Source of the DNA: Bacteroidales bacterium
Lineage (GTDB): Bacteria; Bacteroidota; Bacteroidia; Bacteroidales; UBA932
NCBI GenBank assembly: GCA_016288775.1
Contig: JAEELG010000120.1
Span: 1-64,000 of the forward strand
Direction: 5' to 3'
Length of the DNA: 64,000 nt
The translations under genes were made by a program, and so were the position numbers. The notes beneath the pieces are model-generated. The model was given only the letters and a program-made list of their open reading frames with translations. It made no database searches and was not told the origin of the DNA. Shown here piece by piece: positions 43,464-64,000 of this stretch (the stretch's first letter is position 1; every line of letters begins with the position of its first letter).

Positions 43464-45458
43464 CTATTTCAGTCCTCTGGCCCTCAGCAGGGCGGCGGGA
43501 TCGGGATCCTGGCCGCGGAAGGCGCGGTAGAGGGTCATGGGCTCCTCGCTGCCGCCCTTCTCGAGCACATTGTGGCGCAGGCTCATGGATGTCTCCTGGT
43601 CGAAGATGCCCTTCTGCTTGAACAGCTCGAAGGCATCTTTGTCCAGCACCTCGGCCCACAGATAGCTGTAGTAGCCAGCGCTGTAGCCGCTGGAACCGAA
43701 GATATGGTTGAAGTAGGTGCTGCGGTAGCGCGGGATGATCTCCCCGATCAGGCCCATTTCCTTACAGACCTTTGCCTCGAACTCCTCGACATCGATGCCC
43801 TCGACGGAGGACAGCTCATGCCACTTCATGTCCAGGATGCTGGCGGCGCAGAGCTCGCCGGTGGTGAATCCCTGGTTGAAGTTGGATGCCGCCTGCACCT
43901 TGGCCACAAGCTCGGCGGGGATGACCTCACCCGTCTTGTAATGGAAGGCGTAGGTGGCCAGCACCTCGGGCTCGAAGGCCCAGTTCTCGTTCACCTGCGA
44001 AGGGAACTCCACGAAGTCGCGCTTGACGGAGGTGCCGCTGGTGCCCCTGTAAACGCACTGGCTCAGCAGCCCGTGCAGGGCGTGGCCGAACTCGTGGAAC
44101 ATGGTCTCCACCTGGTCGATGGTGAGGAGAGAAGGATTGTCGGCGGTAGGCTTGTTGAAGTTGCCCACGTTCACGATAACCGGGCGCACGCCCTCTTCCT
44201 GCTCCACGAAATTGGTCATCCATGCGCCTCCCCTCTTGCTGTCGCGGGGGAAGTAGTCGGTGATGATGATACCGATGAGGGAGCCGTCGGAATCGCTCAC
44301 CTTGAACGCCTCGCACTCGGGGTTGTAGAGCTTAACGTCCTTGACAGGCTCGAAGCTGATGCCGTAGAGTTTGGATGCGGTGGCGAATACGCCCGCGCGC
44401 ACGTTTTCCATCTTGAAGTACTGCGACACCTCGGACTCGTCGAGGTCGTAACGGGCCTTGCGGACGCGCTCGGCGTAGTACATGTAGTCCCAGGGCTCGA
44501 TCTTGGAGCCGGCGGGCAGAAGGCCGGCGGCCACGTCCTCGTCCATGAGCTTCTGCATGTCGTATACTTCTTCGCGTGCGCGGAGCATGGCTGCATCCAT
44601 GATTTCCTTGAGGAAGGCGTCAACGGTAGGGGCGTCGTGTGCCATCTTGTTCTCGAGGATGAAGTCGGCCGGGCTGTTGTATCCGAGGAGTTTTGCCTTT
44701 TCGATGCGGAGCTCCATCTCGCGGAGCACCACGGCCTTGTTGTCAAATTCGTCTCCATGGTTGCCGCGCTCGGAATAAAGGCGGAAGATCTTCTCGCGAA
44801 GCGCCCTGTCGGACTCGGAAGCCATTTTGTCGTAGTACTGCGACACGGGGAAGCCGAGTTCCTCCTTGAAGGCATTGGACTGTGCCAGGAGGTTGTTGGC
44901 GAAGTTCAGCGTAAGCGTGGAGAGCTCGCTGTTGATCTCGCGCATGCGGGCCTGGGAAGCTTCGTCAAGGCCCACTCCGTTGCGGACAAAGGACTCATAG
45001 AGGTCCTTCAGCAACATCTGCTGCTCACGGGTAAGACCGCTCTGGTCGGCCTCGTAGACCGCCTTAACGCGGGCAAAGAGATCCGGGTTCATCAGGATGT
45101 CGTCGCTGTGGGCGGAAATCATGGGGGTGGCCTCCTCGACCACGGCGTTGAGCTCGGGGCTGTAGTCGGATTCGATGAGGTTGAAGAGCACGGCTCCCAC
45201 CTTGCTCAGCAATTTGCCGCTGGCATCGTAGGCCGCCACGGTGTTCTCGAAGGTCGGGGCGTCGGGGTTGTCGATGATGGCCTGTATCTCCGCCTTCTGC
45301 TCCTCCATACCGGCATTGACCGCCGGCATATAGTCAGCCACCTTTATCTTGTCGAACGGCGGAATTCCGTACGGAGTGTCCCACTCCTGGAAAAATACAT
45401 TCTTCTGACAACCCGTCATGGCCACCATAAACGCTAACGCAAATAATACTTTCTTCAT
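43464..45458 (-). CDS. M3 family metallopeptidase (peptidyl-dipeptidase Dcp-like), lipoprotein
   Basis: Lipobox VAMTGC; MFHEFGHALHGLLSQCVYRGTSGTSVKRDFVEFPSQVNENW. Confidence 0.95.
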   Translation of the reverse strand: MKKVLFALAFMVAMTGCQKNVFFQEWDTPYGIPPFDKIKVADYMPAVNAGMEEQKAEIQAIIDNPDAPTFENTVAAYDASGKLLSKVGAVLFNLIESDYSPELNAVVEEATPMISAHSDDILMNPDLFARVKAVYEADQSGLTREQQMLLKDLYESFVRNGVGLDEASQARMREINSELSTLTLNFANNLLAQSNAFKEELGFPVSQYYDKMASESDRALREKIFRLYSERGNHGDEFDNKAVVLREMELRIEKAKLLGYNSPADFILENKMAHDAPTVDAFLKEIMDAAMLRAREEVYDMQKLMDEDVAAGLLPAGSKIEPWDYMYYAERVRKARYDLDESEVSQYFKMENVRAGVFATASKLYGISFEPVKDVKLYNPECEAFKVSDSDGSLIGIIITDYFPRDSKRGGAWMTNFVEQEEGVRPVIVNVGNFNKPTADNPSLLTIDQVETMFHEFGHALHGLLSQCVYRGTSGTSVKRDFVEFPSQVNENWAFEPEVLATYAFHYKTGEVIPAELVAKVQAASNFNQGFTTGELCAASILDMKWHELSSVEGIDVEEFEAKVCKEMGLIGEIIPRYRSTYFNHIFGSSGYSAGYYSYLWAEVLDKDAFELFKQKGIFDQETSMSLRHNVLEKGGSEEPMTLYRAFRGQDPDPAALLRARGLK

Positions 45459-45470
45459 ATTGATGCTTCT

Positions 45471-45600
45471 GACGGAAAAAAGCTATAGGGGTCTGCAGAC
45501 TACGGACCTACGGTCCTATCCCTCCCATCTTCGATGGGCCCCTCCCACTCACGCTGCGTGGGCGCAGACGGTCTGCAGACCCCTATAGCTTTTTTCCGTC
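45471..45600. repeat. 130-bp cloverleaf-like palindrome with perfect 30-bp inverted repeats
   Basis: GACGGAAAAAAGCTATAGGGGTCTGCAGAC (45471-45500) and its exact reverse complement (45571-45600); internal GGACC-TAC-GGTCC, CCCATC-TTC-GATGGG and CCCAC/GTGGG hairpins. Confidence 0.97.
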
Positions 45601-45608
45601 AATAATAA

Positions 45609-46760
45609 TTAATTGATCTTAACTGAAACCGAAGGTTCATCAACGAGGGTGAACTGGGCGGCACCGCTGTATATCGAAAGGATACCGGTGATGCTGCAGG
45701 TGGCTCCGCCGGTAAGGAGGCGGGAGTCGAGCACCTCGTCGGAGAACTTGGCATATCCGCTGGTACGCACCTGGACGTCAACACTGCCCACCTTGAAATA
45801 ATGCGACACGTAGTTGGCGGTTGCGTACTTGATCATGATTTCCTTGTAGGTGAGCTCGGCGTCGGTGCCGAAGCTGTCGAGCACCTTGCCGGGCTGCAGA
45901 TAATCGGAAGGCTTGCCGGTGATGGGGCCGTAGCGGGTCGAACCGCTGCCCACCTGGGCAGCATCCCATGCACCGCTGCTCACATACTCGATGAACTTGG
46001 CCTTGGACATCGACCAGGTGTCGATACCCCAGACGCCGCCGTCGGACAAGAAGATACGGTTCTCGGGATTGCCGCTCTTGTGAGGCAGGTTGGGATTAGG
46101 ATACAGCAGGGCGAAAATCTCGTTGCCGTACTTGAGGCCGTTGATGGTGACCAGCTTGCCCCAGAGCTCTCCGGTATAGCCGGCGGAAAGGGCTGCCTTC
46201 AGCTCAGTCTCGCCTACCACGGCGGGAGTGAGAGGGTCGGCGAACGCTCCGCGGAATACGTGAGAGTCGATGATAGCCTGGGAATCGATATACGAAGTCT
46301 CATACTCGTTGGTGGTGGTGCTGTCGGGCTCGAGACCAAGCTGCGGCATGCCGTTGTAGGCGCCCAGCGTGAGGTTGTCGCACTTCACATATATCCACTG
46401 CCCGAGCTTGTAGTCGCTGTAGAGCGAAGACTTTCCGAGCTTGAGGTCGATGCCGCCGGTCTCGTCCTGGATATAGATCTCGCGGTAGACGTTGCCGGTG
46501 CGGTCGCTGGAAATGACCTGGCCCTTGATCCAGATGTTGCCGAAGAGTTCGACTCCCCCGCTCTTGTACATGGCCTTGAGGTCGCGTATGGAGGTGAAAC
46601 CGTTGCATCCCAGGGAGCTGAGGTCCTGCTCGGTGTAGAGCTTCATTGCCGCGGGCTTGTTCTCCCCGAAGGTGAACACGGGATCCCATTCCTCCTTCAG
46701 GCTCTTGCAGGAAGAAAACGCCACGAGGGCCACTGATAAAACGATGAATATCTTTTTCAT
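45609..46760 (-). CDS. DUF5689-like OB-fold lipoprotein
   Basis: Lipobox LVAFSSC; IWIKGQVISSDRTGNVYREIYIQDETGGIDLKLG OB-fold-like; start chosen at MKKIFIVLS. Confidence 0.75.
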   Translation of the reverse strand: MKKIFIVLSVALVAFSSCKSLKEEWDPVFTFGENKPAAMKLYTEQDLSSLGCNGFTSIRDLKAMYKSGGVELFGNIWIKGQVISSDRTGNVYREIYIQDETGGIDLKLGKSSLYSDYKLGQWIYVKCDNLTLGAYNGMPQLGLEPDSTTTNEYETSYIDSQAIIDSHVFRGAFADPLTPAVVGETELKAALSAGYTGELWGKLVTINGLKYGNEIFALLYPNPNLPHKSGNPENRIFLSDGGVWGIDTWSMSKAKFIEYVSSGAWDAAQVGSGSTRYGPITGKPSDYLQPGKVLDSFGTDAELTYKEIMIKYATANYVSHYFKVGSVDVQVRTSGYAKFSDEVLDSRLLTGGATCSITGILSIYSGAAQFTLVDEPSVSVKIN

Positions 46761-46764
46761 AAGC

Positions 46765-49641
46765 CTAGAACCTGAAATAAACGTTAAGCATGTAATTGAA
46801 ACCGGACATGTAGAAGTACTTCGAGTCGAAGCGGTAATAGCGCTCCTTGGACACGGTGTTGTCGACCATACGGGTCTGCTCGTAACCGCCGGTCTTGACA
46901 TCGGTGTTGTTCAGGAGATTCTTCACATTGAGCGAGAAGCCCAACTGGTACTTGTACTTGATGTACCACGACTTGCCCACGGATGCGTTCACGAGCACGG
47001 CAGGAGCGAAACGCTCCTGCTTGGTCATGTAGGCGATCTCAGCCGGGGTCACGTTGTTGTCGGGGCCTGCGGTAGCGTAGTCGGTGCGGTACAGGGGGTT
47101 CATGTCGAGATAGGACTCTCCGAAGTATTCCACGTCGGCGTCGATGAACCAGTAGTTGTAGTTGTATGCAAGGCCGAGGGAAGCCGCAATCTGCGGAGTC
47201 GAAGGCAGATAGTGCTGCTGACGGTTGCCGTTCTCGTCGTAACCGCAGCGCCAGTAAGGCACCAGCACGTCTTTCATCACCACCTCGGCGCTGTTGTCCA
47301 CGGTCTGGGTCATGCGGGGAGTGGAGGTGTACTCGTAGCGGCCGGCGGCCAGGACACCCTGGAGCGAGAGGTTGTTCACCAGATAGGTGGGGATCTTGAA
47401 TCCGAGCTCCAGACCGTAGTTCTGCTGGTCGATATTGCTGATGGCGAAGTTGGAGAAGGCGTTCTGCAGGTCGTCGTAGGCGCTCATCACCTTGCTCTGG
47501 TCCTTGATGGAGGTGTAGTAAAGCGTGGCTCGCACGTTGATGCCGTTGCCGGAGTACTGCCAGTTGACGTCGCTGGAGAAGGTCTTGATAGGAGCGATAT
47601 CGTCTATCATGGTGTTGCGGGTCCTAGGAGAGAGGAACACCTGGTTGAACTTGGGCGCATCGTTGAAGTAACCCACGTTCGCATAGACGCGCTGGTTGCC
47701 TCCGATCACGTAGTTCAGGCCGAGCTTGCCGGCGTAGGTGAGGAAGTTCGCATGCTTGGAGCTGCCGTACGAAGTCTCGTCGGTGGCGACGATACCCTCA
47801 TTCTTCCAGGCTGCGGCCATGGTCTCGTTGTCCGGCTGGCCGGGGAACAGACCCTTGCGGAGGAGACCCTCGCGCCAGAAGGATTCATATCCCAGACGGC
47901 CGCCCACGTTGGCGCTGAAGTTTCCGAACACGAACTTGCCGTTAACCCATCCGCCGTAGTTGCGGACCTGGGCCAGATAGTCGTATCCGTACTTGTCGCC
48001 CTCGTGGAGGATGCGGGAGGCGCCGTTGTTTGCCATGTAGTACTCGAGGTCGTTCTGGAGCTTCCAGGGCTGTGCGGCAAAGTCGCGCTCGGCGAAGTTG
48101 TCGATGTCGAGGAAGTACTGGCCACCAAGGAGATCGGCCACGATCTTGTAGTTCTCGGTGCGGTTGATGCGGGCGTTGAGGCCGCCGGTGACGGTCACGA
48201 AATCGGCCGCACGCCACTTGAACGATGCTGCAAAGTTAAGGTCGTTCTGGTCTACGTGGCGCTCCTCCTGCACATACTTGGAACGTCCGCCCTCCTGGAT
48301 GGCGTTGACGTTGTACAGACGGTCCCAGTTGATGTGGGTGAGATTGGGATAGAGCTCGGAGAATTTCCAGACCTCGTTGGCCCAGCCCCACTTTGCGTAG
48401 TTGGCGCGGTTCATGTCGGGATTCTCGTCGTAGAAGTAGCTCGGCAGGTTGCGGTAGTAGTCGGGGCGGGGATCCTGGGCGTCGTACCAGTCGAGTGCGG
48501 TGTAGCCGTTCTTGCCGAAACGGTACAGCACGGTGGCGCTGCCCTGGAAGGCGTCGGACGGCGTGAAGTCGTACTTCAGGAACGCAATGGGCTCATGCGT
48601 CTTGCGCACGCGGGCGTTGCGGACCTTGCCGTTCTGGTAACCCCAGTTGGAGTTGTACATGTTGTCCTTCATCAGGTCGTAGACTTCCTGGGTGGACGCG
48701 TTCTGCGCTCCCCTCTCGCCGGGCGTTCCGAAGAATGCGAAGCTCAGCTTATGGGTGCTGTTGAACACCTTGTCGGCGGCAAGATAGTATGCGAACGAGC
48801 GGTAATAGACACCGTCGATCCAGTCGTTGCCGCCCAGACGGGCGCTCACGTTTGCGGCGAACGCCCAGCCGTTGTCCATGGGACCTGTGGCGTAGGAGGC
48901 CATGAGGCGGAGGCGGTACAGGGTGCTGTTGGTGAGCACGCTGCCCCTGAGACCCTTGCGCACGTTCAGGGCGTTGCCGAAGATGTTGGTGAGGCCGTTG
49001 TAGCCGCCGAAGCCATAGTCGGACACCTCGGAACCGTTCACCGTCTCCTTCGAACGCATCGCCTCGTTGAGGCCGCTCCACAGCGAGAACGGAGAGTAAC
49101 CGGTAATGGCGTCGTTAAGCTTCACACCGGCCAGATAAACGTCCTGAGACTCGGAGCTGTATCCCCTGGCGCGGAAACGCACAGAGGAGAAGTTGTATCC
49201 GGCGATGTTGTTGAACACGTCGTTGGAGCCGAACAGGATGGTGGGGTTGTCGTTGTAGCCCGAATCGTCGAGGTCGAAGGCGGCGAAGGAGTCTTCGTCG
49301 AGTTCGGTCACCTGCTGGATGGCTGTCATCGACAGGTTGAACATATTCTTCACGTAACCGTCGTTCACGGTCACCTGCACCTGGTTGTCGAGGAAGTCGG
49401 GAGCCGTGATGACAAGGGTGTACAGGCCGTCGGCGAGGTCGGGAATCTCGAAGGTTCCGTCCTCGGCGCTCTCGACCACCGCCACCTCGACCGCACCCTG
49501 CATGAGGGTGAGCTTGGCTTTCTCGACGGGCTGCCTGCCGTTGCGGTTGACCACGGTACCCTTGACTCCGCCGGTGTAGTCCTGGGCGGAAAGGGCCACC
49601 GCTGCAAGCAAGGCGGCGAATGCCAGTAAGAGTCTTTTCAT
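46765..49641 (-). CDS. TonB-dependent receptor
   Basis: Signal peptide; CarboxypepD_reg-like GGVKGTVVNRNGRQPVEKAKL; plug/barrel features; C-terminal MLNVYFRF. Confidence 0.9.
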   Translation of the reverse strand: MKRLLLAFAALLAAVALSAQDYTGGVKGTVVNRNGRQPVEKAKLTLMQGAVEVAVVESAEDGTFEIPDLADGLYTLVITAPDFLDNQVQVTVNDGYVKNMFNLSMTAIQQVTELDEDSFAAFDLDDSGYNDNPTILFGSNDVFNNIAGYNFSSVRFRARGYSSESQDVYLAGVKLNDAITGYSPFSLWSGLNEAMRSKETVNGSEVSDYGFGGYNGLTNIFGNALNVRKGLRGSVLTNSTLYRLRLMASYATGPMDNGWAFAANVSARLGGNDWIDGVYYRSFAYYLAADKVFNSTHKLSFAFFGTPGERGAQNASTQEVYDLMKDNMYNSNWGYQNGKVRNARVRKTHEPIAFLKYDFTPSDAFQGSATVLYRFGKNGYTALDWYDAQDPRPDYYRNLPSYFYDENPDMNRANYAKWGWANEVWKFSELYPNLTHINWDRLYNVNAIQEGGRSKYVQEERHVDQNDLNFAASFKWRAADFVTVTGGLNARINRTENYKIVADLLGGQYFLDIDNFAERDFAAQPWKLQNDLEYYMANNGASRILHEGDKYGYDYLAQVRNYGGWVNGKFVFGNFSANVGGRLGYESFWREGLLRKGLFPGQPDNETMAAAWKNEGIVATDETSYGSSKHANFLTYAGKLGLNYVIGGNQRVYANVGYFNDAPKFNQVFLSPRTRNTMIDDIAPIKTFSSDVNWQYSGNGINVRATLYYTSIKDQSKVMSAYDDLQNAFSNFAISNIDQQNYGLELGFKIPTYLVNNLSLQGVLAAGRYEYTSTPRMTQTVDNSAEVVMKDVLVPYWRCGYDENGNRQQHYLPSTPQIAASLGLAYNYNYWFIDADVEYFGESYLDMNPLYRTDYATAGPDNNVTPAEIAYMTKQERFAPAVLVNASVGKSWYIKYKYQLGFSLNVKNLLNNTDVKTGGYEQTRMVDNTVSKERYYRFDSKYFYMSGFNYMLNVYFRF

Positions 49642-49642
49642 G

Positions 49643-50737
49643 CTATTTGGAGATTATGATATACGTAGGATAGTGGTCGGAGAAACCGCCGACGAAAGCG
49701 CCGCCGGAGAAAGTACGGAAAGGCGTGCCCTTGTACTGGCCGCTCTGGTTGGTCATGAAGGGCTTGGAGAAGATGCGTCCGTAATACTTCTGCTTCACGA
49801 TGGGCTGGATCTCGAAAGTTCCGGGAACGGCGTTGGCGAGCGCGTTGTTGCACATCACGATGTCGAAGATATTGTTTCCGCTCTGATAATACAGGGAAGC
49901 GTAGCCGGCCTTGATCATGCTCAGGAACGGGTCGAAGAAATCCTCGTCGGTGAGGCCCTCCCTGAACTCCTTGCCGCGCAGGAAATCGGTCATGGAGATG
50001 TCCTGAGGGTTGTCGTTCATATCGCCCATGACGACTATCTTGATGCCGGGGAACTCCTTCTGCAGCTCCATCGCCCTCTGATAGACGATCTCGGCGCCGC
50101 GTGGACGGAGGTCTGCGCCCTTGCCGCCCAGACGGGAAGGAAGGTGGCAGACGAAGATGCCGAACATCTCGCCGTCGATGGTTCCGCGTACCAGGAGCAC
50201 GTCACGGGTCTTGAAGTTGTCCTTCTCCTCCTGAGTCCACTGGCTCCAGTCGATGCGGGAAGGATCGAAGGTGAAAGGAATGGCCTCGCTGGCGATGAAC
50301 TTGAAGACGTCGGGACGATAGAACAGCGCGCAGTCCACGCCACGGCGGTCGGGGCTGTCGTAATGCACTATCTGGTAGTTGGCTTCCGCAATGGCGGGCT
50401 CTGCCACCAGGTCTTCAAGCACGTGGCGGTTCTCAACCTCGGAGACTCCCAGGACGGCGTGCCATGCACCGTTGTCGTTCTTCATCTCGGCGATAACCCT
50501 GGCCATGTTCTGCAGTTTCTTGGCATATTTGGCCTCAGTCCAGTTGTTGTCGCCTTCAGGCAGGTACTGATAATCGTTCTTGCCCTGGTCATGGACGGTA
50601 TCGAAGAGGTTCTCCAGGTTGTAGAAACCTATGACATAAGACTTGCGCTGAGCGCCGTTGCCGGCAGTTTTGCCGGCAGGGCCGCAGCCTGTGGCAATCA
50701 GGCCGAAGAGCAGCAGCGCGGTTAGAATTCTTTTCAT
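49643..50737 (-). CDS. EEP-family nuclease/phosphatase lipoprotein
   Basis: Lipobox LIATGC; GFYNLENLFDTVHD, VLGVSEVENRHVLEDL, VMGDMNDNPQD, FSDHYPTYI. Confidence 0.9.
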   Translation of the reverse strand: MKRILTALLLFGLIATGCGPAGKTAGNGAQRKSYVIGFYNLENLFDTVHDQGKNDYQYLPEGDNNWTEAKYAKKLQNMARVIAEMKNDNGAWHAVLGVSEVENRHVLEDLVAEPAIAEANYQIVHYDSPDRRGVDCALFYRPDVFKFIASEAIPFTFDPSRIDWSQWTQEEKDNFKTRDVLLVRGTIDGEMFGIFVCHLPSRLGGKGADLRPRGAEIVYQRAMELQKEFPGIKIVVMGDMNDNPQDISMTDFLRGKEFREGLTDEDFFDPFLSMIKAGYASLYYQSGNNIFDIVMCNNALANAVPGTFEIQPIVKQKYYGRIFSKPFMTNQSGQYKGTPFRTFSGGAFVGGFSDHYPTYIIISK

Positions 50738-50756
50738 TATCTGGTTTGTTTAGTTG

Positions 50757-51932
50757 TTATTTCCACCATTTTGACGGTTCCGCCGCCTCGAGCGCGTCGG
50801 CCTTATCCTTGCCGATCAGGGCGACGAGGTTGGGGAAGAAATCGATGCCCGTCTCCTTTTCGAGCGTGTCGATCGAGCGGATGTAATTCAGGCAGTTCGC
50901 CTTGGATATCGAGGTGTCGTGCGGCAGGAAAAAGCCCGCGGCCATGTATCCGTCGGTCGCGTATGTCGAAGGGCCCTTGTACAGCAGCGCCTTGAAATAG
51001 TGCGTGGGGATCCTGACCATGAACCCGGAGCTGTTCCCCGAGTGAGTGGCGGAGTCCTTGTACTGGCATCCGGTGACCACGTAGAGCGTATCCGCGGCAG
51101 AGGCGTAGGAACGCACCTTGCCTTCCAGGTCGGCCCACACCCCCGCATTGAAGTTGTAGTCCTGCGGGGTCATGTTGGTGCCGTAGAACGTGGATATGTT
51201 GGCCTCCCTGGTGAGCCGGTCCGCAGAAGGGATCTGGTGCCCGCGGGTCCATCCGCCGCCGTAGGAGCCCATGATGAGGTTGGGCTGGATGTCGGCGGGC
51301 AGAAGCGGGTCGAGGCCCCAGACGTTGGTGCGGTTGCCGTTGCCCTTCAGGCTGTTGTTGAGCGGATACGCCACCCACAGCGACATGTGCTCCTTGTAAT
51401 CCCAGTAGAACGACCAGTTGCGTACGCCGCTGACGGCCTGGCTCACATAGGCGCCTCCGGCCATGTCGTGCGCGAAGAAATCCAGGCCGTCGCCGGCCAC
51501 TGTGGCGGGAAGTTCCAGCCATTTGGGCGAGGCGACGTCTTCGCCGTAGGAATCTCCGGACGCATAGAACATGCTCTTCTGGACCAGGGTTTCGCTGCGC
51601 ACTTCGGGGCCTTTCGCGGGATGAAGGACGAGTACGATGCTGCGTGGCTGGTCGCCTTCGTTGGCATCATAATACAGGCGCACATCGGCCTTGGAGCCCT
51701 CTCCGGAAACCGGAGACAGGGATGCCCACGTCCCTTCGTCAGACGTTTCGTAGCTTATATGCCAACCGGCACGCGCGGTCACGGACACGAATATGCTGCC
51801 GCCCCCGGCTTCCAGTTCCGTGGTCCGGGGGGTAATGGCAGCAGTATTGTCTTCAGGATCCTGTTCCGCGCAGGAAACGGGGAGCAGGCACAGTGAAGCG
51901 GCAAGCGCCAGTATGAAGACGCGCAGCTTCAT
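50757..51932 (-). CDS. BACON-domain lipoprotein fused to DNA/RNA non-specific endonuclease domain
   Basis: Lipobox LLPVSC; BACON-like ELEAGGGSIFVSVTARAGWHISYE; TRGHQIPSADR and TNMTPQDYNFNAGVWADLE match NUC1-family D/TRGH and N-x-x-PQ motifs. Confidence 0.85.
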   Translation of the reverse strand: MKLRVFILALAASLCLLPVSCAEQDPEDNTAAITPRTTELEAGGGSIFVSVTARAGWHISYETSDEGTWASLSPVSGEGSKADVRLYYDANEGDQPRSIVLVLHPAKGPEVRSETLVQKSMFYASGDSYGEDVASPKWLELPATVAGDGLDFFAHDMAGGAYVSQAVSGVRNWSFYWDYKEHMSLWVAYPLNNSLKGNGNRTNVWGLDPLLPADIQPNLIMGSYGGGWTRGHQIPSADRLTREANISTFYGTNMTPQDYNFNAGVWADLEGKVRSYASAADTLYVVTGCQYKDSATHSGNSSGFMVRIPTHYFKALLYKGPSTYATDGYMAAGFFLPHDTSISKANCLNYIRSIDTLEKETGIDFFPNLVALIGKDKADALEAAEPSKWWK

Positions 51933-53888
51933 TTATTTGACGGCCTTGACTCCGAAGAGGAATGCACGGTAGCCCTTCTTGTTGCCTGCATAGGTCTCTA
52001 CCTGGACAGAGGACTCGGATGCAAGAGGGGAATCGAACTTGATTGAATACTTGTCGGATTCCGTAACGGTTACATTATAGGGGCTGGAATTCGAGGCTCC
52101 GTCATTGGCCTTGACGTCAACGGATTTGGTTGCGTCGCCAAGGGTGAATTTAAGGGATGCATCAGCGCCCTTCCATCCGATCGCATAGAAGGTAACCTCC
52201 TTGGTGCCTGCGGGCAGGACAACGGTACCGGAGCCATATTTGCTGCTGGTGCCGAACTTGAGGTTCTTGACGTTGGAAACGCCATTGACATTGAGCACGT
52301 TGTCGTCGTAGCAGCTGGTGCCCTTGGTCATGGTGACGTTGGATGAATACTCTCCTTCGTCGCCGCCCTGGCCGCCACCGCCGCCGCTGCCGCCGCCGGG
52401 AGTGCCGCTGCCGCCGGATACCCAGTATGCATACATGACCTCGACCTTGTCCTGATAGGAGCCGCGGAAGCCGATGAGAGTGATTTCATCACCGTCCACG
52501 ATGCCGAGAGAGCTGAAGGACTGGTCGTTCTTGGCACCGTATCCGAGGTTGGTTGCGGTAAGGCCGTAGACATAGACCGTACCGGTGGCATCCGTGAGGT
52601 CGAAGTTGCCATAGGTGGTATTGATGCTGCCGCCTACCTTGCCGGTGAGCTTGTAAGGCTGGTCGTTGGACTCGGGGGCCGCAATGAATTCAGCCACGGT
52701 AACGGCCTTGGCTTCCTTCACGTTGCCGCCGCCACCGCCGCCGGGATTGGTACCGCTGCCCTTCTCGCCGTTGATGGAATAGACATAGCCGCCGGAAGTC
52801 TCGGGAGTGTTGCCCTTGAAGTTGACGACCTTGGCATAAACCACGACCTCGTCGTTGGCGTTGATGGTCTTGCCGCCTTCCTTCCACTTCTGGTTATCGA
52901 AATAGAGTACGCGGTATGCTGTGAATACGGCGTCGTAGCCTTCGTCCACCATAGTGAAGGTGGCGTTGCCGTACTGGGCGGCGAACTGATCGGTGACCTC
53001 TTTCACCTTGCCCTTGATGTAGTAGCTGTCGGTGGATGCCGTCTGGCCTACGGACTCTGCCTTGGCGATAGCCGCAGCCACGTTGAACGGATCGGCCTCC
53101 GTGCCGGAACCCTTGGCTGCGCCGGTTTCACCACCGCCGCCGCTGCCGCCCTCGGTCACGCCGTTGAGGGAATAGATGAAGCTGCCGCCCTTACCCACGG
53201 TCTCAGGGGTGTTGCCCTTGTAATTGACGACCTTACCGCACATTATAACCTCGTCGTCGGCCTTGATCTCGGTATCGCCGCTCTTCCACTTACGGTTGCC
53301 CAGATAGTAGCTCTGGAAGCAGTAGAAGGTGTCTCCGCCGGGTTCGTCAGCAATGTAGAAGGTGGCATTGCCATAAGTGCCGCTGGCCGCGAAAGTCGTG
53401 GCCACAGAGGTGACCTTGCCCTTGAAATAGACCACGTCGGGACTTTCCACATCGGCGCCGAGGCCCTGCACGTACTTGATCACGCCGGCCACGGTGTAAG
53501 GATCTTCCTTGGTGCCGGTTCCGAGCTTGATCTCGCCCTGCGCTCCAGTCTGGCTGATGGTGAGGGCAGCCTTCATGATACCGATGGTAAACATGACGGT
53601 ACCGGTGCGGTTGTGCCCGGAATTGGCGTTGACGCTCACGCTGACCTTCTGCGGCTTAGTGGATGCGTTGCCGCCGGTCACGCTGACGGCCACCCAGTCG
53701 GGCTGGCTTGCGATGAGCCAGTCACGGGTGGCGAGAAGCTCAACCTCTGAGGTGCCTTCGGACTGATCGAAAGACAGTTCTCCGGGGGTGACGGTGAGAT
53801 TGGCCATGCCGAGTTCCTCCTCCTGATTACAGGAGACGAAGGCCACGGCTGCGGCCATCAGAGTCAAAAGGATTCGTTTAAGATTCAT
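51933..53888 (-). CDS. BACON-domain lipoprotein with three OB-fold-like modules joined by poly-Gly linkers
   Basis: Lipobox AFVSC; repeated YFKGKVTSVATTF..YGNATFYIADE and YYIKGKVKEVTDQFAAQYGNATFTMVDEG; third module YKLTGKVGGSINTTYGNFDLTDATGTVYVYG. Confidence 0.78.
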   Translation of the reverse strand: MNLKRILLTLMAAAVAFVSCNQEEELGMANLTVTPGELSFDQSEGTSEVELLATRDWLIASQPDWVAVSVTGGNASTKPQKVSVSVNANSGHNRTGTVMFTIGIMKAALTISQTGAQGEIKLGTGTKEDPYTVAGVIKYVQGLGADVESPDVVYFKGKVTSVATTFAASGTYGNATFYIADEPGGDTFYCFQSYYLGNRKWKSGDTEIKADDEVIMCGKVVNYKGNTPETVGKGGSFIYSLNGVTEGGSGGGGETGAAKGSGTEADPFNVAAAIAKAESVGQTASTDSYYIKGKVKEVTDQFAAQYGNATFTMVDEGYDAVFTAYRVLYFDNQKWKEGGKTINANDEVVVYAKVVNFKGNTPETSGGYVYSINGEKGSGTNPGGGGGGNVKEAKAVTVAEFIAAPESNDQPYKLTGKVGGSINTTYGNFDLTDATGTVYVYGLTATNLGYGAKNDQSFSSLGIVDGDEITLIGFRGSYQDKVEVMYAYWVSGGSGTPGGGSGGGGGQGGDEGEYSSNVTMTKGTSCYDDNVLNVNGVSNVKNLKFGTSSKYGSGTVVLPAGTKEVTFYAIGWKGADASLKFTLGDATKSVDVKANDGASNSSPYNVTVTESDKYSIKFDSPLASESSVQVETYAGNKKGYRAFLFGVKAVK

Positions 53889-53930
53889 AATAACGCGTTA
53901 TTTGTTTTAGTTTCTTGGATTTGCGATTTT

Positions 53931-53938
53931 CAAATATA
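53931..53938 (-). promoter_or_regulatory. -7 element (TATATTTG on minus strand)
   Basis: CAAATATA on plus strand between the terminator and the 53888 start. Confidence 0.5.
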
Positions 53939-53971
53939 AATATTTTTTTGGTCTTTTGATATATATAGAAG

Positions 53972-54004
53972 AAAAAAGCCGACGGAATCGCTTCCGCCGG
54001 CTTT
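53972..54004 (-). terminator. intrinsic terminator of the upstream OB-fold/TonB unit
   Basis: Minus strand AAGCCGGCGGAA-GCGA-TTCCGTCGGCTTTTTTC. Confidence 0.85.
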
Positions 54005-54022
54005 GCAGACAGGTAAGAACGA

Positions 54023-56350
54023 TTACTCGGTCTTGCCGTTATGGGAATAGACCCAGGCGAGCTTGCTGGAGGTCTCGTAAGTGCCCTTGTAAAGCGTCAG
54101 CTGGCCCTTTACGATTACCTCGTCGCCAACAGCGATCTGCGGATTGCCGTCGACCCACTTGGCGCCGCCGAACCAGTACACGCTGTAGCACTCGAAGTCT
54201 TTCTTGGGCTCGGTGGTGGTCTTCTTGTCGGCGGACACGCCGTGGGCGGTGCCGTCGTCGGAAATCCAGAATGTACCGGTGCCGTAATTGGCGCTGAAGG
54301 TATAAAGGACTGCGGAGACCTTGCCCTTCACGCATACGTCAGGGAAGGTGGGAGCGGCCTGGGAAGCCTCGGCTGCGGCGGCCTTTGCGGCCTCCATGCG
54401 GTCGATGAACGCCTCGGCGCCGGCCACGTTGAACGGAGAGTTGGTGTTGCCCACGCCGTCCTTGTCGGAGGTTGCGCCGTTGATGCTGTAGACCCATGCC
54501 TTCTTGCTGCTGGTCTCGGCAACGCCGTTGTACACGGTCAGCTTGCCCTTGACCACGACCTCGTCGCCGACCTCGATCTGGGCGTTGCCGTCGGCCCACT
54601 TGGCGTTGTCGAACCAGTAGATGCTATAGCACTCGAAGTCCTTCTTGGGCTCGGTGGTGGTCTTCTTGTCGGCGGAGACACCGTAGGCGGTGCCGTCGTC
54701 GGAGAGCCAGACAGTGCCGGTGCCGTAGCTTGCGCTGAAGGTGTAAAGGATTGCGGAGACCCTGCCCTTCACGTACACATCCTCGTCGAAGGTAGTGCCG
54801 GAGGTAAGGAGCTCGGCGATCTCGGATGCCATGTAAGGATTGGTGGCGGTACCCTTCGGGTTGTCCACGAATTCAGCGATCTTGGTGGCAATGACGTTGA
54901 TGTACTTGTCCTTGCTGGACAGGCCGTTGAAGTAACCGGTGACGGTGATCTTCTTGCCGTCGAAGGACTTGGCGTTCAGCTCGTCCACGGGAGCCACGAT
55001 GGAGCCCTGCTTGGAGCCGTCGGCGAAGGCGTCGAGCATCAGGTTGTAGTAATTGCCGGAGACTGCGAGGGTACCGGTGAGCTTCACGTACTCGGCCTTG
55101 GAAGCCTTGTAAGTGCCTGCCTCGGAGGTGATGTCCTTAGCCTCGGGATGCTTGACCTCGTTGTTCTTGCTGTCCACGAACACCTCGGTGACGTCGGTCA
55201 GCTCGGGAACTCCGTTGTAGGTGGTCTTCTTGGCGCTGATGCGCACGTTGTCGCCGGCCTCGAGGGAAGCGACGGCGTCGCCGTACACATAGAGTGCGTT
55301 GGTGCCGTCGGACACAACCACGCCCTTGGTCGTCTTGGCCACGACGGTGGTCTTGTCGGCTACGGTCTGCACCAGGTCGTTATCGGCAGCGGCGATGATC
55401 TCGGTAACGGTGGATCCGGTAGCGGGAACACCCAGCTGGGTGATAGCGACGCTCTTGCGGGCGGTGGGGCCGGAGATGGCGATGTTGGCGGTACGCTCGG
55501 CGGTGCGGAGGTTCGCATCTGCATGGAGCTTGTAGCTGCCGTCGGCGTTCACGGCGACGATCTGGAGCCAGTCGGCGTCGCTGGAAAGGAGAAGCGGGCT
55601 CTCCTTGGCGGAGACCACGAGGTTGAAGGTGGTTTCCTCTGCAGGGACCTTGTCGAATTCGAGCGGAGCGACGTCGATGAGGGACTTCTCGATCTTCACG
55701 ACGGAGACGTCAACGAGCTCGACGGTGCCGTTGTAAACGGTCTTGGGACCTTCCACGGTCACCACGTCGCCGACCTCGATGCCGAAGCCGGCCCAGCCGC
55801 CGTCAGCGTCCTTGGGATACTGACCCTTGCTGTTGAAGGTACCGTAAATGTAGATCTCGCCGGTGTCGTCGGCCAGATACCAGTTGCCATAGCTGGTGTT
55901 GGCGATACGGGTGACGGTGCCGCGCACCTTGTAGGTCACGTCGGGTCCGTTGATAACGTCCTTGCAGGTCGCCATGGGAACCTCGACTCCTGCGGGAGCC
56001 TCCTGGTTCACCTTGATGATCTTGGTCTTGTCGCCCATCTTGATATGCACCTCGGTGCTGCGGGCGCTCTTGGACTCGGCGGCGGTGAAGGTAAGCTTGA
56101 CGTCCTGTCCGGCGGCACCGGCAGCAGGGCTCACGCTGAGCCATGTGGCTTTTGCGTCGGCAACCGAAGCGGTCCATGCGTCCACACCGTTGACGGTGAC
56201 GGAAACGCTTGAATTCTCGGCGGCGCCGATGGTAATGTAGTCGTTGGAGACCGTAAGGCCCTCGAGGACGGATACGGGATTCTCCTTCTCACAGCCGGTA
56301 AGAACTGCAGCGGCTGCAATGAAAGTAGCAATGATATATTTGAGTTTCAT
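54023..56350 (-). CDS. BACON-domain lipoprotein with tandem OB-fold-like modules
   Basis: Lipobox AAVLTGC; YKVRGTVTRIANTSYGNWYLADDTGEIYIYG; two near-identical C-terminal modules (VYVKGRVSAILYTFSASYGTGTVWLSDDGTAYGVSADKKTTTEPKKDFECYSIYWF / VCVKGKVSAVLYTFSANYGTGTFWISDDGTAHGVSADKKTTTEPKKDFECYSVYWF). Confidence 0.78.
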   Translation of the reverse strand: MKLKYIIATFIAAAAVLTGCEKENPVSVLEGLTVSNDYITIGAAENSSVSVTVNGVDAWTASVADAKATWLSVSPAAGAAGQDVKLTFTAAESKSARSTEVHIKMGDKTKIIKVNQEAPAGVEVPMATCKDVINGPDVTYKVRGTVTRIANTSYGNWYLADDTGEIYIYGTFNSKGQYPKDADGGWAGFGIEVGDVVTVEGPKTVYNGTVELVDVSVVKIEKSLIDVAPLEFDKVPAEETTFNLVVSAKESPLLLSSDADWLQIVAVNADGSYKLHADANLRTAERTANIAISGPTARKSVAITQLGVPATGSTVTEIIAAADNDLVQTVADKTTVVAKTTKGVVVSDGTNALYVYGDAVASLEAGDNVRISAKKTTYNGVPELTDVTEVFVDSKNNEVKHPEAKDITSEAGTYKASKAEYVKLTGTLAVSGNYYNLMLDAFADGSKQGSIVAPVDELNAKSFDGKKITVTGYFNGLSSKDKYINVIATKIAEFVDNPKGTATNPYMASEIAELLTSGTTFDEDVYVKGRVSAILYTFSASYGTGTVWLSDDGTAYGVSADKKTTTEPKKDFECYSIYWFDNAKWADGNAQIEVGDEVVVKGKLTVYNGVAETSSKKAWVYSINGATSDKDGVGNTNSPFNVAGAEAFIDRMEAAKAAAAEASQAAPTFPDVCVKGKVSAVLYTFSANYGTGTFWISDDGTAHGVSADKKTTTEPKKDFECYSVYWFGGAKWVDGNPQIAVGDEVIVKGQLTLYKGTYETSSKLAWVYSHNGKTE

Positions 56351-56365
56351 AACAAGCCGGATTAA

Positions 56366-59300
56366 TTAGTTGAACATGTACCTTATACCGAGCTGCATGT
56401 ACCAGCAGTTTGCCAGAGTGTGGGTGTAGTCCCAGGTGCTCACGCCGGAGCCGACCATAGTGGAGAACACGGGAACTCCGTCGGGATCGGTGCGCTCGTA
56501 CTTGAGGATCTTGGCGTTTCCGTTGGTGTCGTGGGGAACGTCGGTGTTCCAGCTCTTGGATACGCCCCAGGTGGAATCGAACAGGTTGCCGATATTCTGG
56601 ACGTCCACGCTAACCTGCAGGGTGTTGCGGGTCTTGCCGAGGTTCACGATGAAGTCGTGGGCGAAACGGAAGTCGAACACGTGGCGGAAAGGCTGGTTGA
56701 CGGCGTAAGCCTCGGAATATTTGCCCTTGTTTGCGGTCAGATATGCATCCTGCGCGGCATACTCCCAGTAACGGTCGGCGTTGTCCTTGTCGATGAAGCG
56801 GATCTCGCTCTCGTCCTTGGGTATGTACATCAGGTCGTAGGCGTTGCCGTCGCCGTTCATGTCGTTGGCGTAGATGTAGCTGTTGCCCGAGTAGCGGAGG
56901 CCCTCATAGAAGAGGCTCCAGTGGTTGTGACCGGCATCGGTGTAGGACACGGAAGCCATGATACGGTCGGGCAGGTTGTACGAAGAGTTGTGCAGCACGT
57001 TGAAGTTGGGACCGTCGACCGAAGGGATGTACTTCCATGCGGCGGTGGCGTTGGATCCGGGCATACCGGTAACCTCCTTGCTCACGGTGTGGGTGTAGGC
57101 GGCGGTGATGTACAGGTCCTTGACGGGCTGGGTATTGATGGACACGGATGCGATGGAACCGTAGCCCTTGTTGGTGTTGGACAGGATGAAGGCGTCGACC
57201 TTGCTGTACTTGTAGCTTGCAGGATAGAGGTGACGCTGGTCCGCGCCGTTGAAGGTAGCCCAACCGGAGTTGTCGTCGGTGATGTTGTAGTTGGTGAGCA
57301 TCACGCCCTGGAGGGTCTTGTTGAAGATGTATTCGGCGCTGACGGTGAACGGGAAGGAGAAGGGCAGGGTGTAGTCGACTGCGATGGAACTCTTCCACAC
57401 CTGCGGCATCTTGAAGTTGTAATCGACTCCGGCGACCTCGCTGGGAGCGGGTGCGGTCTCAGGAGTGATGGTCTTGGGATACTTGTCGGCGTCGATGCCG
57501 TTCAGGATGTCGAGGATCTCCCACCTGTCGGTGACGAGCTTGCCGTCCTTCATCATCTTGGCGAGCACGTTGGAATCCTTCATCTTGGTAAGACGGCCCT
57601 TCACGATACCTGCGTTGGTAGGCATGTTGGTGAAGAACACCAGAGGGATACGGCCTGCGAAAAGACCGGTACCGCCGCGGATCTTGAGGCTCTTGTCGCC
57701 CAGAACGTCCCAGGAGAAGCCCAGACGGGGGCTGATCTGGATGTTGCTCTTGGGCCACTTGCCGGTGTCGACGCTGCGTCCGCCGTAGTCGATCGCCAGG
57801 GTGGCGTTGTTGGTAAGGACGTCGGCGTTGTTGAAGGACAGGTTGTCGAAACGGAGGCCGTAGGTGAGCTTGAACCGGTCGCTGACCGCCCACTCATCCT
57901 GTGCATAGGCGCCGACCTGTGCGAAACGGACCTTTGCGGAAGGATACTCGTCGCGGTCGAAGCCCCAGTCGAATGCCATTTCAACAGGAGCCTTGCCGGC
58001 ATAGAAGTCGGACAGGCTGGCGAAACGGAAAGTACCGGTACCGTTACGCATGTAAGTGTTGAGAGCCATCTGGGTCTCCACGCTTGCACCGGCGGTGATC
58101 TTGTGGGCTCCGAGATACCAGGTGATATCGTCCTTCACGTTCAGGACGGTGTTCTGGACCTTGTTCCTGTAGGTGAAGAGCTCGGTACCGAAGTCCATGT
58201 ATGGCTCGTTCTCGTGGCCCTCACCGAGGTCGCCGGCAAGGATTTCGACGAAGGGGAAGAATCCGCCGTCGTTGCCACGGACGTCCTGGATGTCGGAATA
58301 GGTGACGAGCAGCTGGTTGGACAGGTTGTCGCCGAGACGGCTGTTGAGGTCGGCGGAGACTGTCCAGAGGTTGTTCATCTGGTTGTAGAGGGAGTTGGAG
58401 AACACCAGACCGTCTTTACTTACCATGCCGTTGGACATGTCGGAAACGTCACGGGAAGTGGAAGGGATCTTCCAGGTGTTGTTGTTGGTGTAGTTGTAGC
58501 GGAGAGACAGGTGGTGTGCGTCGCTGATGTTCCAGTCGATGCGGGCAAGGAGCTTGAGGTTACCCTGGTCCTTGTTGTAATTGTCGTAGTAGCCCGGATC
58601 GTAACCGTAGTTGTCGATGAGGAACTTGCGCATGGTCTCGGCCTCGCTCTTCTGTACACGGGTGATCATCCTGTCCTCGTCGGCGACGCCGTCGGTGGAA
58701 GGACGCCACTTGATGATCTCGCTGGGGCTCGGGGACCTTTCGGCGTTCAGGAAGAAGAACAGCTTGTTCTTGACGATGGGGCCGCCGAGGGTGAAACCGT
58801 AAGTGGTCTGGCTCTCGGGAGAGCGCTCAAGGTCGACGCCGTCAACACGGTTGCCGTGAAGGTTCTCATTCTGGTGGAAGGCGTAAACGGTTCCCTTGAA
58901 GGTGTTGGTACCGGACTTGGTGACAGCGTTGATACCGCCGCCGATGAAGTTGGTCTGGCGCACGTCGTAAGGGGAAACCACGACCTGCATTTCCTCGATC
59001 GCATCGATGGAGATGGGGTTGCCGCCACCGGGAAGCGCGGCGCTCAGACCGAAGTTGTTGTTCACGTTCGCACCGTCAACGGTGAAGTTGGTGGAACGGC
59101 CGGAGCTTCCGGAGAAGTTCATTCCGTTACCGCCGTAGGGCGAGAGCTTTGCCATATCGGAGAAACTCCTGCTGATGGACGGCATCTCGGTTATCTGCCT
59201 TGAAGAGATGTTGGTCGATGCACCGGTCTTCTCCACGGTGGAGAACTTGGACGATGCAGTGGAAATCACGACCGCTTCGCTGAGGAGTTGGGAGTCATCG

Positions 59301-59632
59301 GACAGGGCTGCGTCGAGAGCGTAGACTTCGGCGAGCTGAAGCGTCACGTCGGTGTAGTTGACCTTGCGGTAACCCATGCAGGAGACCTCTACGGAGTAGG
59401 GACCGCCGGAACGCATACCGTTGATGTTGTAACGGCCTTCGGCGTTCGTGAGGCCGTAGTACTGCGACCCGGAAGGGGTGTGTACGGCCACGACGGTGGC
59501 TCCGGGGATGGCCTCCCCATTGGCATCGGTGACCTTGCCACCGAGAGACGCTGTCGTGACCTGCGCATAGGCGGACACGACAAAGAACATTGCTGCCATG
59601 GACAGCAACAGCGCTTTGAATGATTTTTTCAT
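56366..59632 (-). CDS. TonB-dependent receptor, Oar-like with carboxypeptidase-regulatory domain
   Basis: TASLGGKVTDANGEAIPGATVVAVHTPSGSQYYGLTNAEGRYNINGMRSGG; SRSTNFTVDGANVNNNFGLSAALPGGGNPISIDAIEEMQVVVSPYDVRQTNFIGGGINAVTKSGTNTFKG. Confidence 0.93.
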   Translation of the reverse strand: MKKSFKALLLSMAAMFFVVSAYAQVTTASLGGKVTDANGEAIPGATVVAVHTPSGSQYYGLTNAEGRYNINGMRSGGPYSVEVSCMGYRKVNYTDVTLQLAEVYALDAALSDDSQLLSEAVVISTASSKFSTVEKTGASTNISSRQITEMPSISRSFSDMAKLSPYGGNGMNFSGSSGRSTNFTVDGANVNNNFGLSAALPGGGNPISIDAIEEMQVVVSPYDVRQTNFIGGGINAVTKSGTNTFKGTVYAFHQNENLHGNRVDGVDLERSPESQTTYGFTLGGPIVKNKLFFFLNAERSPSPSEIIKWRPSTDGVADEDRMITRVQKSEAETMRKFLIDNYGYDPGYYDNYNKDQGNLKLLARIDWNISDAHHLSLRYNYTNNNTWKIPSTSRDVSDMSNGMVSKDGLVFSNSLYNQMNNLWTVSADLNSRLGDNLSNQLLVTYSDIQDVRGNDGGFFPFVEILAGDLGEGHENEPYMDFGTELFTYRNKVQNTVLNVKDDITWYLGAHKITAGASVETQMALNTYMRNGTGTFRFASLSDFYAGKAPVEMAFDWGFDRDEYPSAKVRFAQVGAYAQDEWAVSDRFKLTYGLRFDNLSFNNADVLTNNATLAIDYGGRSVDTGKWPKSNIQISPRLGFSWDVLGDKSLKIRGGTGLFAGRIPLVFFTNMPTNAGIVKGRLTKMKDSNVLAKMMKDGKLVTDRWEILDILNGIDADKYPKTITPETAPAPSEVAGVDYNFKMPQVWKSSIAVDYTLPFSFPFTVSAEYIFNKTLQGVMLTNYNITDDNSGWATFNGADQRHLYPASYKYSKVDAFILSNTNKGYGSIASVSINTQPVKDLYITAAYTHTVSKEVTGMPGSNATAAWKYIPSVDGPNFNVLHNSSYNLPDRIMASVSYTDAGHNHWSLFYEGLRYSGNSYIYANDMNGDGNAYDLMYIPKDESEIRFIDKDNADRYWEYAAQDAYLTANKGKYSEAYAVNQPFRHVFDFRFAHDFIVNLGKTRNTLQVSVDVQNIGNLFDSTWGVSKSWNTDVPHDTNGNAKILKYERTDPDGVPVFSTMVGSGVSTWDYTHTLANCWYMQLGIRYMFN

Positions 59633-59671: not shown

Positions 59672-59679
59672 CAAAGTTA
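59672..59679 (-). promoter_or_regulatory. -7 element (TAACTTTG on minus strand) for the Oar-like receptor
   Basis: CAAAGTTA on plus strand. Confidence 0.5.
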
Positions 59680-59736
59680 TATCAAGAAAATTTCTCCTAC
59701 AACTAAGAAATGAACAATTTATTAACAATTTTTATA

Positions 59737-59744
59737 TATATTTG
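59737..59744 (+). promoter_or_regulatory. -7 element (TATATTTG) for metK
   Basis: TATATTTGC about 13 nt before the riboswitch P1 stem. Confidence 0.65.
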
Positions 59745-59754
59745 CACCCCTTAA

Positions 59755-59807
59755 CAGCGAGGACAGATTTGCCTGCTTGCAACCTCGCATTAAAAAATGC
59801 TAAAATG
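59755..59807 (+). ncRNA. SAM-II-like (SAM-II/SAM-V superfamily) riboswitch in the metK leader
   Basis: GCGAGG-ACAGATTTGCCTGCTTGCAA-CCTCGC-ATTAAAAAATGCTAAAATG: perfect 6-bp P1, conserved GATTT, TTGCAA before P1 3' strand and GCTAAA after it; 3' pseudoknot strand abuts the ATG. Confidence 0.85.
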
Positions 59808-61049
59808 AACTATCTCTTTACATCGGAGTCGGTCTCCGAAGGGCATCCCGACAAGGTCGCGGACCAGATTTCAGACGCAATTCTCGACGAGTTCCTGTCC
59901 CAGGACCCGGAGTCCAAGGTGGCATGCGAAACCTTCTGCACCGCCGGGCTCGTGGTGGTGGGCGGCGAGGTGCGTTCCGAGCACGCTTACGTCGACATCC
60001 ACGCCACCGTCCGCAAGGTCATTTCCCGCATCGGCTACAACAAGGCCGAATACGGTTTCGACGCCGCTTCCTGCGGCATAATCAGCACCATACACGAGCA
60101 GAGCGCCGACATCAACCGAGGCGTGGTGCGCGAGACGGAAGAAGAGCAGGGCGCCGGCGACCAGGGCATGATGTTCGGCTACGCCTGCCGCGACACCGAG
60201 GAATACATGCCCCTCGCGCTGTCGCTGTCGCACCGCATGCTTCAGATCCTGGCCGACATCCGGCACAACGAGCCTTCGCTCATGCCTTACCTTAGGCCCG
60301 ACGCCAAGGCGCAGTTCACCGTTGAATTCTCCTCGCACCACCACCCGGTGCGCGTACACACAATCGTTCTAAGCACCCAGCACGACGACTTCGGTACCGA
60401 CGAAGAAATGCATGCCCGCATCGAGCGCGACGTGCGTGAAATCGTGATTCCCAGGGTGATAGCTTCCCTGCCGGAGCGTACCGCTGCGCTGTTCAAGGGC
60501 GACTGGATCCTGCACGTGAACCCCACCGGAAAGTTCGTCATCGGCGGGCCCGCCGGCGACACCGGACTCACCGGGCGCAAGATCGTGGTCGACACTTACG
60601 GCGGACGCGGAGCCCACGGCGGCGGAGCCTTCTCCGGAAAAGATTCATCCAAAGTCGACCGCAGCGGCGCATATGCCGCGCGCCACATAGCCAAGAACCT
60701 GGTGGCCGCCGGCGTGTGCGACGAAGCCCTGGTGCAGCTGGCGTACGCCATCGGCGTGGCCGAGCCCGTGAGCGTGTTCGTGGAGACCTACGGCAGCGCG
60801 CACGTGGAGGGCGGTGACGCCTACATCGCATCGCGCGTCCGCGAGCTGTTCGACCTGCGACCTGCCGCCATCGTGCGCAGGTTCGGTTTGAAGAACCCGA
60901 TTTTCGGTCCCACGGCAGCGTACGGGCATGTCGGGCGCAAGCCGTACCGCGCAGTCGTAACCGTCTGCGGGGAGCAGCGCGAGGTGCAGTTCTTCGGCTG
61001 GGAGAAGCTCGACATGGTTGACGATCTGAAGCGAGCCTTCGGCCTATGA
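59805..61049 (+). CDS. metK: S-adenosylmethionine synthetase
   Basis: [68 protein letters not shown]. Confidence 0.98.
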
Positions 61050-63390: not shown

Positions 63391-64000
63391 TCATTCCCAC
63401 TCGATCTCAATCTTGGTGATATAGATGGCTCCGTTGTTGGAACGGATGCCGACATAGGCATACTGATCCGCCGCCGCCGTGAAATCGATCGTGCCGGTCG
63501 CAGTCAGCGTACCGATCTTCGAGCCCTGATTGGCGTTTTCGCCCGTCGCATAGAGGTCGCCGGCGCCGGTGTAGGCCGTATTGTTGCCATACACGTCGAT
63601 GGGGTTCGAGCCGGACTCGACCGTAATCGTCACGGACTTGACCCGGCCGCCGGAGATCGTGGACACTATACCGGAGTTGCTGTTCTTGGAACGCAACTGG
63701 ATGCCACCGGAGCTGCTCTTCGCGCTATTGCCGGCATAGCGCGCGCTGGACGTCGCGGCGACATTCGAGAAGTCGGTATAGGTCGTGTTCGTAGCGGCGA
63801 GCAGGGCGGCCGTGATCGTATCCGTAGTCCCGGAAGAGTCGCCCGCAGCCCTCTGCGTGATGGTGATGGTGACATCAGCGCAGCCCTCGGCGCTCACCGT
63901 GGCCGTGTAAGTAGCAGCCGTGCTGCCCGTGTTGGCGGCGAAGGTGAGGGTCACCTCGGCATTGCCGTTGCCGGCAGTAGCGGACGGGGTGACGCCGGCT
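63391..64000 (-). CDS. BACON/Ig-like surface protein, C-terminal fragment (5' end beyond window)
   Basis: Frame open to window end: AGVTPSATAGNGNAEVTLTFAANTGSTAATYTATVSAEGCADVTITITQRA then a beta-rich C-terminal domain. Confidence 0.65.
   Translation of the reverse strand, partial: AGVTPSATAGNGNAEVTLTFAANTGSTAATYTATVSAEGCADVTITITQRAAGDSSGTTDTITAALLAATNTTYTDFSNVAATSSARYAGNSAKSSSGGIQLRSKNSNSGIVSTISGGRVKSVTITVESGSNPIDVYGNNTAYTGAGDLYATGENANQGSKIGTLTATGTIDFTAAADQYAYVGIRSNNGAIYITKIEIEWE

Follow-up and report, generated by a model that had tools for sequence, protein, structure and literature searches.

A transporter, lipoprotein and nuclease unit of a Bacteroidales genome with a probable role in the outer-membrane stage of DNA import

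Introduction

How does DNA cross the outer membrane of Bacteroidia? In Porphyromonas gingivalis, ComEA and ComEC are needed, the pilus of the species is not involved and the mechanism at the outer membrane is unclear (PMC11532111). The question is raised anew by seven genes in a 64,000-nucleotide stretch of a Bacteroidales bacterium (the window: positions 1 to 64,000 of contig JAEELG010000120.1, assembly GCA_016288775.1; GTDB lineage Bacteria, Bacteroidota, Bacteroidia, Bacteroidales, UBA932). The last five genes, hereafter the core unit, probably encode the outer-membrane stage of DNA import, as an extended form of a gene pair needed for transformation of Riemerella anatipestifer. As an earlier note made from the sequence alone had described, the seven genes are co-oriented, all on the minus strand:

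59632-56366, minus strand, TBDR1, Oar-like TonB-type receptor, 1088 amino acids (aa)
56350-54023, minus strand, OBA, lipoprotein with two BACON and five domains of oligonucleotide/oligosaccharide-binding (OB) type, 775 aa
53888-51933, minus strand, OBB, lipoprotein with BACON, three OB domains and a C-terminal beta-rich domain, 651 aa
51932-50757, minus strand, NUC, lipoprotein with BACON and DNA/RNA non-specific endonuclease domains, 391 aa
50737-49643, minus strand, EEP, endonuclease/exonuclease/phosphatase family protein, 364 aa
49641-46765, minus strand, OMP2, TonB-dependent transporter, 958 aa
46760-45609, minus strand, DUF5689 lipoprotein with a predicted tandem OB fold, 383 aa

The start of the DUF5689 gene, which the note had set at 46901, was corrected to 46760.

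Orthology to the transformation pair of Riemerella

Clean deletion of either RA0C_RS04915 or RS04920 in R. anatipestifer leaves no transformants (detection limit about 4e-10, against 5.4e-5 in the wild type), and transposon mutants in comEC, dprA, recA, comF and the gene of a helix-hairpin-helix (HhH) protein are equally null (PMC8459023). The authors of that study proposed that RS04915 and RS04920 carry DNA across the outer membrane (PMC8459023). In strain CCUG25054 (L152) we found the gene order ComEC, a 145-aa protein, a carboxyltransferase, EEP, OMP2 and DUF5689, with RecA and sdh genes further upstream in a close relative (L142). This order fits the published tags RS04870 (RecA), RS04895 (ComEC), RS04910, RS04915 and RS04920 (PMC8459023), so that, by gene order, the Riemerella OMP2 is RA0C_RS04915, DUF5689 is RS04920 and EEP is RS04910.

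The window proteins match those of Riemerella with E-values of 5e-97 (OMP2), 1e-58 (EEP) and 3e-11 (DUF5689), and phylogenetic analysis groups the window OMP2 with RS04915 in one clade of 67 OMP2 proteins (support 0.992) that leaves five paralogues outside. Judged from these comparisons, the OMP2/DUF5689 pair is orthologous to the Riemerella transformation pair. The proposal of the earlier note, that the locus captures and takes up nucleic acids, is well supported through this orthology. At both loci the DUF5689 lipoprotein adjoins the transporter downstream and a PF19580 EEP gene lies next door, but this gene, part of the operon in the window, runs divergently in Riemerella. The window also adds NUC and the OB/BACON lipoproteins, which the Riemerella locus lacks, and ComEC, four genes away in Riemerella, is unlinked in the window genome.

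Conservation of the core unit

To describe gene order within the window's family we used tblastn matches and open reading frame (ORF) calls. In 19 of the 20 relatives fetched, NUC, EEP, OMP2 and DUF5689 follow each other in that order, as a rule preceded by an OB or BACON lipoprotein gene, and DUF5689 lies directly downstream of OMP2 in 20/20 family loci. The conserved synteny that the earlier note had suggested checking thus holds for these four genes but not for TBDR1, which stands beside the operon in only 4/20 relatives (L033, L034, L036, L043). The note's seven-gene unit, likened to a polysaccharide utilisation locus (PUL) with two co-operating receptors, is not supported: by this synteny, the conserved unit is the last five genes, and TBDR1-OBA is a separate unit present only in some relatives.

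Beyond the family, we searched 396 genomes of the phylum and sampled 40 loci across class Bacteroidia. OMP2 is followed by DUF5689 in 38/40 loci, and an EEP gene, mostly divergent, lies at most two genes from OMP2 in 31/40. NUC is nearby in 3/40, and most cases of the form that contains it come from the family and order of the window. Named loci of Flavobacteriia have DUF5689 after OMP2 in 62/62 cases and EEP adjacent in 61/62. Outside class Bacteroidia no full-length OMP2 was found, and 113/120 genomes of the Chryseobacterium/Riemerella family have one. This wide EEP-OMP2-DUF5689 synteny and the link to transformation had been missed by the earlier note.

Transporter and DUF5689 lipoprotein

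OMP2 has a Pfam match to CarboxypepD_reg and none to plug and barrel families. Its AlphaFold model (pLDDT 88.4, 49 sequences) comprises the CTD (residues 25-105), a disordered linker (109-140), a plug (142-228) and 22 barrel strands, and Foldseek returns TonB-dependent transporters (PqqU at 1e-26, also FhuA and FecA). The predicted fold is that of a plugged 22-strand TonB-dependent transporter. TBDR1 matches OMP_b-brl_4 of Oar type (6e-55) and CarboxypepD_reg in Pfam, and the SusD family has no Pfam match in any of the seven genes; two TonB-type receptors without SusD are what the earlier note had read from the locus.

The DUF5689 protein matches PF18942 (4.5e-39). Foldseek matches its AlphaFold model (pLDDT 88.7, alignment of 35 sequences) best with OB proteins that bind DNA: an RPA filament, the HIN domains of IFI16 and p204, RADX, BRCA2 and CST. 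These matches have modest E-values, low TM-scores and long gapped alignments, and the model therefore supports tandem OB folds but not a specific mode of DNA binding.

OB-fold lipoproteins and nucleases

The DUF5689 protein was folded, and the OB domains of OBA and OBB were assigned by repeat profile. By repeat hidden Markov models, OBA has five OB units and OBB has three (residues 121-245, 258-376 and 386-498), and the profile of these repeats finds RPA32 in the PDB (1.7e-4). Pfam matches to OB families are themselves weak (tRNA_anti_2 in OBA, 9e-6); those to BACON reach 1.2e-13 over two stretches of OBA and 1.2e-6 in OBB. Residues 347-435 of OBA match positions 30-119 of the NCBIfam profile NF033681, in the OB region of ExeM/NucH (4.6e-8). 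The OB folds claimed by the earlier note are borne out by the Pfam and RPA32 matches and by the DUF5689 model. In OBA, OBB, NUC and DUF5689 acidic residues come right after the lipid cysteine, a trait of surface-exported lipoproteins of Bacteroidetes.

NUC carries Endonuclease_NS (PF01223, 4e-34) and a weak Pfam match to BACON, and aligns with NucA, EXOG and EndoG. It conserves the catalytic and metal residues R230-G-H232, N262 and E270, and the spacing of H232, N262 and E270 equals that of H89, N119 and E127 in the Serratia nuclease. EEP matches Exo_endo_phos_3 (PF19580, 7e-89), and across 76 sequences its residues N40, E102, H198, D239, N241, D354 and H355 all reach 93% conservation or more; a sequence search of the PDB with EEP gave no match. 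The nuclease families given by the earlier note are thus confirmed, and by their sequences both domains have intact catalytic residues. The note had also called EEP a lipoprotein: the family stands, but in most relatives EEP is no lipoprotein. EEP lacks the acidic residues behind the cysteine and 20/21 EEP sequences of the family lack a lipobox, which makes the periplasm the better guess for its location. In two relatives a second EEP gene follows DUF5689 directly (L044 16549-17574; L047 2118-3140), a duplication inside the operon.

Transcription units and surroundings

From TBDR1 to DUF5689 the intergenic gaps measure 15, 134, 0, 19, 1 and 4 nucleotides (nt), the sole long one lying between OBA and OBB. 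The terminator and promoter that the earlier note had placed between the two multi-OB lipoproteins are both found in this gap, where a TAnnTTTG element lies 50 nt upstream of OBB. Upstream of the seven genes, a motif scan finds such elements only before OBB and before TBDR1, against a chance expectation of about 0.04 per 200 nt. The elements around the genes are:

59672-59702, minus strand, Bacteroidetes-type promoter motif TTG-N20-TAACTTTG upstream of TBDR1 (motif scan)
54004-53975, minus strand, intrinsic terminator closing the first unit, 13-bp stem then T tract
53931-53938, minus strand, TATATTTG, -7-type promoter element before the core unit (motif scan)
45470-45601, no strand, perfect 31-nt inverted repeat that flanks a 70-nt core and closes the operon

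Because the terminator and the TAnnTTTG elements sit in the OBA/OBB gap and before TBDR1, the genes probably form two transcription units, TBDR1-OBA and the core unit OBB-NUC-EEP-OMP2-DUF5689 (53888 to 45609). An Rfam search gave no regulatory RNA inside the operon, and phage families gave no match except a nuclease.

The 70-nt core of the closing repeat has at least five further copies in the genome (78-99% identity); by its sequence the element is a dispersed hairpin repeat of the miniature inverted-repeat transposable element or repetitive extragenic palindrome type. Downstream of the operon lies a gene for an M3-family peptidase lipoprotein (43464-45458), also found after DUF5689 in four relatives (L033, L035, L040, L043). 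On the other side, a SAM-II riboswitch (59753-59813, plus strand) precedes metK (ORF 59742-61049), divergent from the operon. A further BACON-domain protein with a C-terminal beta-rich region (63391-63999) is open at the window end.

Competence genes elsewhere in the genome

The window genome encodes ComEC, DprA and a membrane-anchored ComEA-like protein with tandem HhH motifs. Its ComEC is a short form of 351 aa with the membrane domain only (L150 1174-2229, contig C132); within the family, some genera have a short ComEC and others one of about 700 aa. No secretin was detected in this genome, which is 84% complete, making the absence provisional. As for a pilus ATPase, the only T2SSE match in the same genome was below threshold and fell in a ClpB-like AAA protein. 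Next to the Chryseobacterium loci, a 646-aa ORF first read as ComEC proved to have the N-terminus of Rho. Among the named loci, ComEC is linked only at those of Riemerella type and DprA is nearby in three others, which makes linkage to competence genes weak evidence.

Proposed mechanism and alternatives

These data suggest the following course of import. On the surface, OBB, OBA of the neighbouring unit and the DUF5689 protein with its tandem OB folds would bind extracellular DNA, which the NUC endonuclease would cut, creating ends. OMP2 would then move the DNA over the outer membrane, powered by TonB, with DUF5689 as lid or receptor partner; EEP, probably in the periplasm, would trim it; and the ComEA-like protein, ComEC and DprA, encoded elsewhere, would pass it onward. 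Such an importer would be independent of pili, and the surface endonuclease and OB lipoproteins would be an extension made in the window's family. That the OMP2/DUF5689 pair itself moves DNA, that NUC and EEP act where and as proposed, and that the window organism is transformed rather than merely fed are inferences.

Several observations weigh against this course. The transformation loss in Riemerella may reflect a surface or regulatory defect, and although tonBA and tonBB mutants of R. anatipestifer show lowered transformation, the tonBB effect was ascribed by its authors to iron (PMC8383284). The OMP2 proteins of the window and of Riemerella share a low identity (29% over 992 columns). Since the Riemerella locus has neither NUC nor multi-OB lipoproteins, the roles given to these are purely conjectural. 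Nearly every genome of the family has ComEC and DprA, which leaves their co-occurrence with OMP2 without power, and the ComEC of the window genome is short. All operon proteins are acidic (isoelectric points 4.8-5.4), which is atypical for non-specific DNA binders and a mild objection. DNA binding and uptake by these proteins are predictions from sequences and models, and a surface endonuclease could equally serve DNA as food.

The last point leads to the strongest alternative, a role in nutrition only, in which surface nucleases would cut extracellular DNA or RNA into oligonucleotides, OB lipoproteins hold them and OMP2 import the short ones as food; this is the model of the earlier note, confined to the core unit. 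Small ligands are the usual cargo of TonB-dependent transporters, and in the window's family two nucleases, one of them a non-specific surface endonuclease, are apparently co-transcribed with the transporter. The NUC-containing form belongs mostly to this family and its order, not to the transformable Riemerella, and the short ComEC also fits. We nevertheless find this unlikely, given that the OMP2-DUF5689 pair is needed for Riemerella transformation and is kept without NUC in most of the class; nor are feeding and transformation exclusive. A ligand of another kind (protein, glycan or phosphorylated compound) seems improbable. The nuclease-family enzymes would then be phosphodiesterases or phosphatases and the Riemerella phenotype indirect; the EEP superfamily includes enzymes active on lipids and inositol phosphates, carbohydrates can be ligands of OB and BACON domains, and the acidity of the operon proteins would fit. 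But NUC is from a nuclease family and has its catalytic residues, DUF5689 and the OB repeats are closest in fold to proteins that bind nucleic acids, and the Riemerella OMP2 and DUF5689 mutants are as severe as comEC mutants. Least probable is defence or biofilm formation, with surface nucleases degrading incoming or matrix DNA and the receptors as incidental neighbours. The extracellular DNase BT3563 is required for bile-induced biofilm in Bacteroides thetaiotaomicron (PMC11078008). In the loci studied here, however, receptor, DUF5689 and EEP remain neighbours throughout the class even where NUC is lost, and in Riemerella the pair promotes DNA entry instead of blocking it. Import of DNA by the core unit thus stays our preferred reading.

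Relation to known systems

The locus shares with SusCD-type PULs a TonB-dependent transporter with N-terminal CarboxypepD_reg, co-transcribed with surface lipoproteins and hydrolases. It differs in having neither SusD nor glycoside hydrolases: the partner is a tandem-OB protein and the hydrolases are nucleases. The extracellular DNases ExeM/NucH combine an OB-type region like that of OBA with an EEP nuclease domain, but fused in one secreted enzyme, whereas the window has separate proteins. A surface endonuclease coupled to DNA import is known from Streptococcus pneumoniae, whose EndA is a His-Me finger enzyme of NUC's broad superfamily. This is an analogy only, as EndA is of another Pfam family and its host is Gram-positive, with no outer membrane. 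BT3563 is likewise an extracellular DNase of a member of Bacteroidia, but its known role is in biofilm.

Significance

The locus ties a widespread set of transporter, lipoprotein and nuclease to the outer-membrane DNA step of Bacteroidota, and its core unit probably supplies the outer-membrane step that has long been missing from the picture of DNA import in Bacteroidia. A broader proposal, to which we give slightly less than even odds, is that Bacteroidia in general move DNA over the outer membrane independently of pili, by means of a TonB-powered transporter and its tandem-OB lipoprotein partner. The window's family would then have added a surface endonuclease and multi-OB lipoproteins, and with them gained a self-contained machine to bind, cut and import DNA. 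If the core unit does import DNA, then bringing in DNA is among the tasks open to TonB-dependent transporters, and the locus identifies a path by which genes pass between Bacteroidia.

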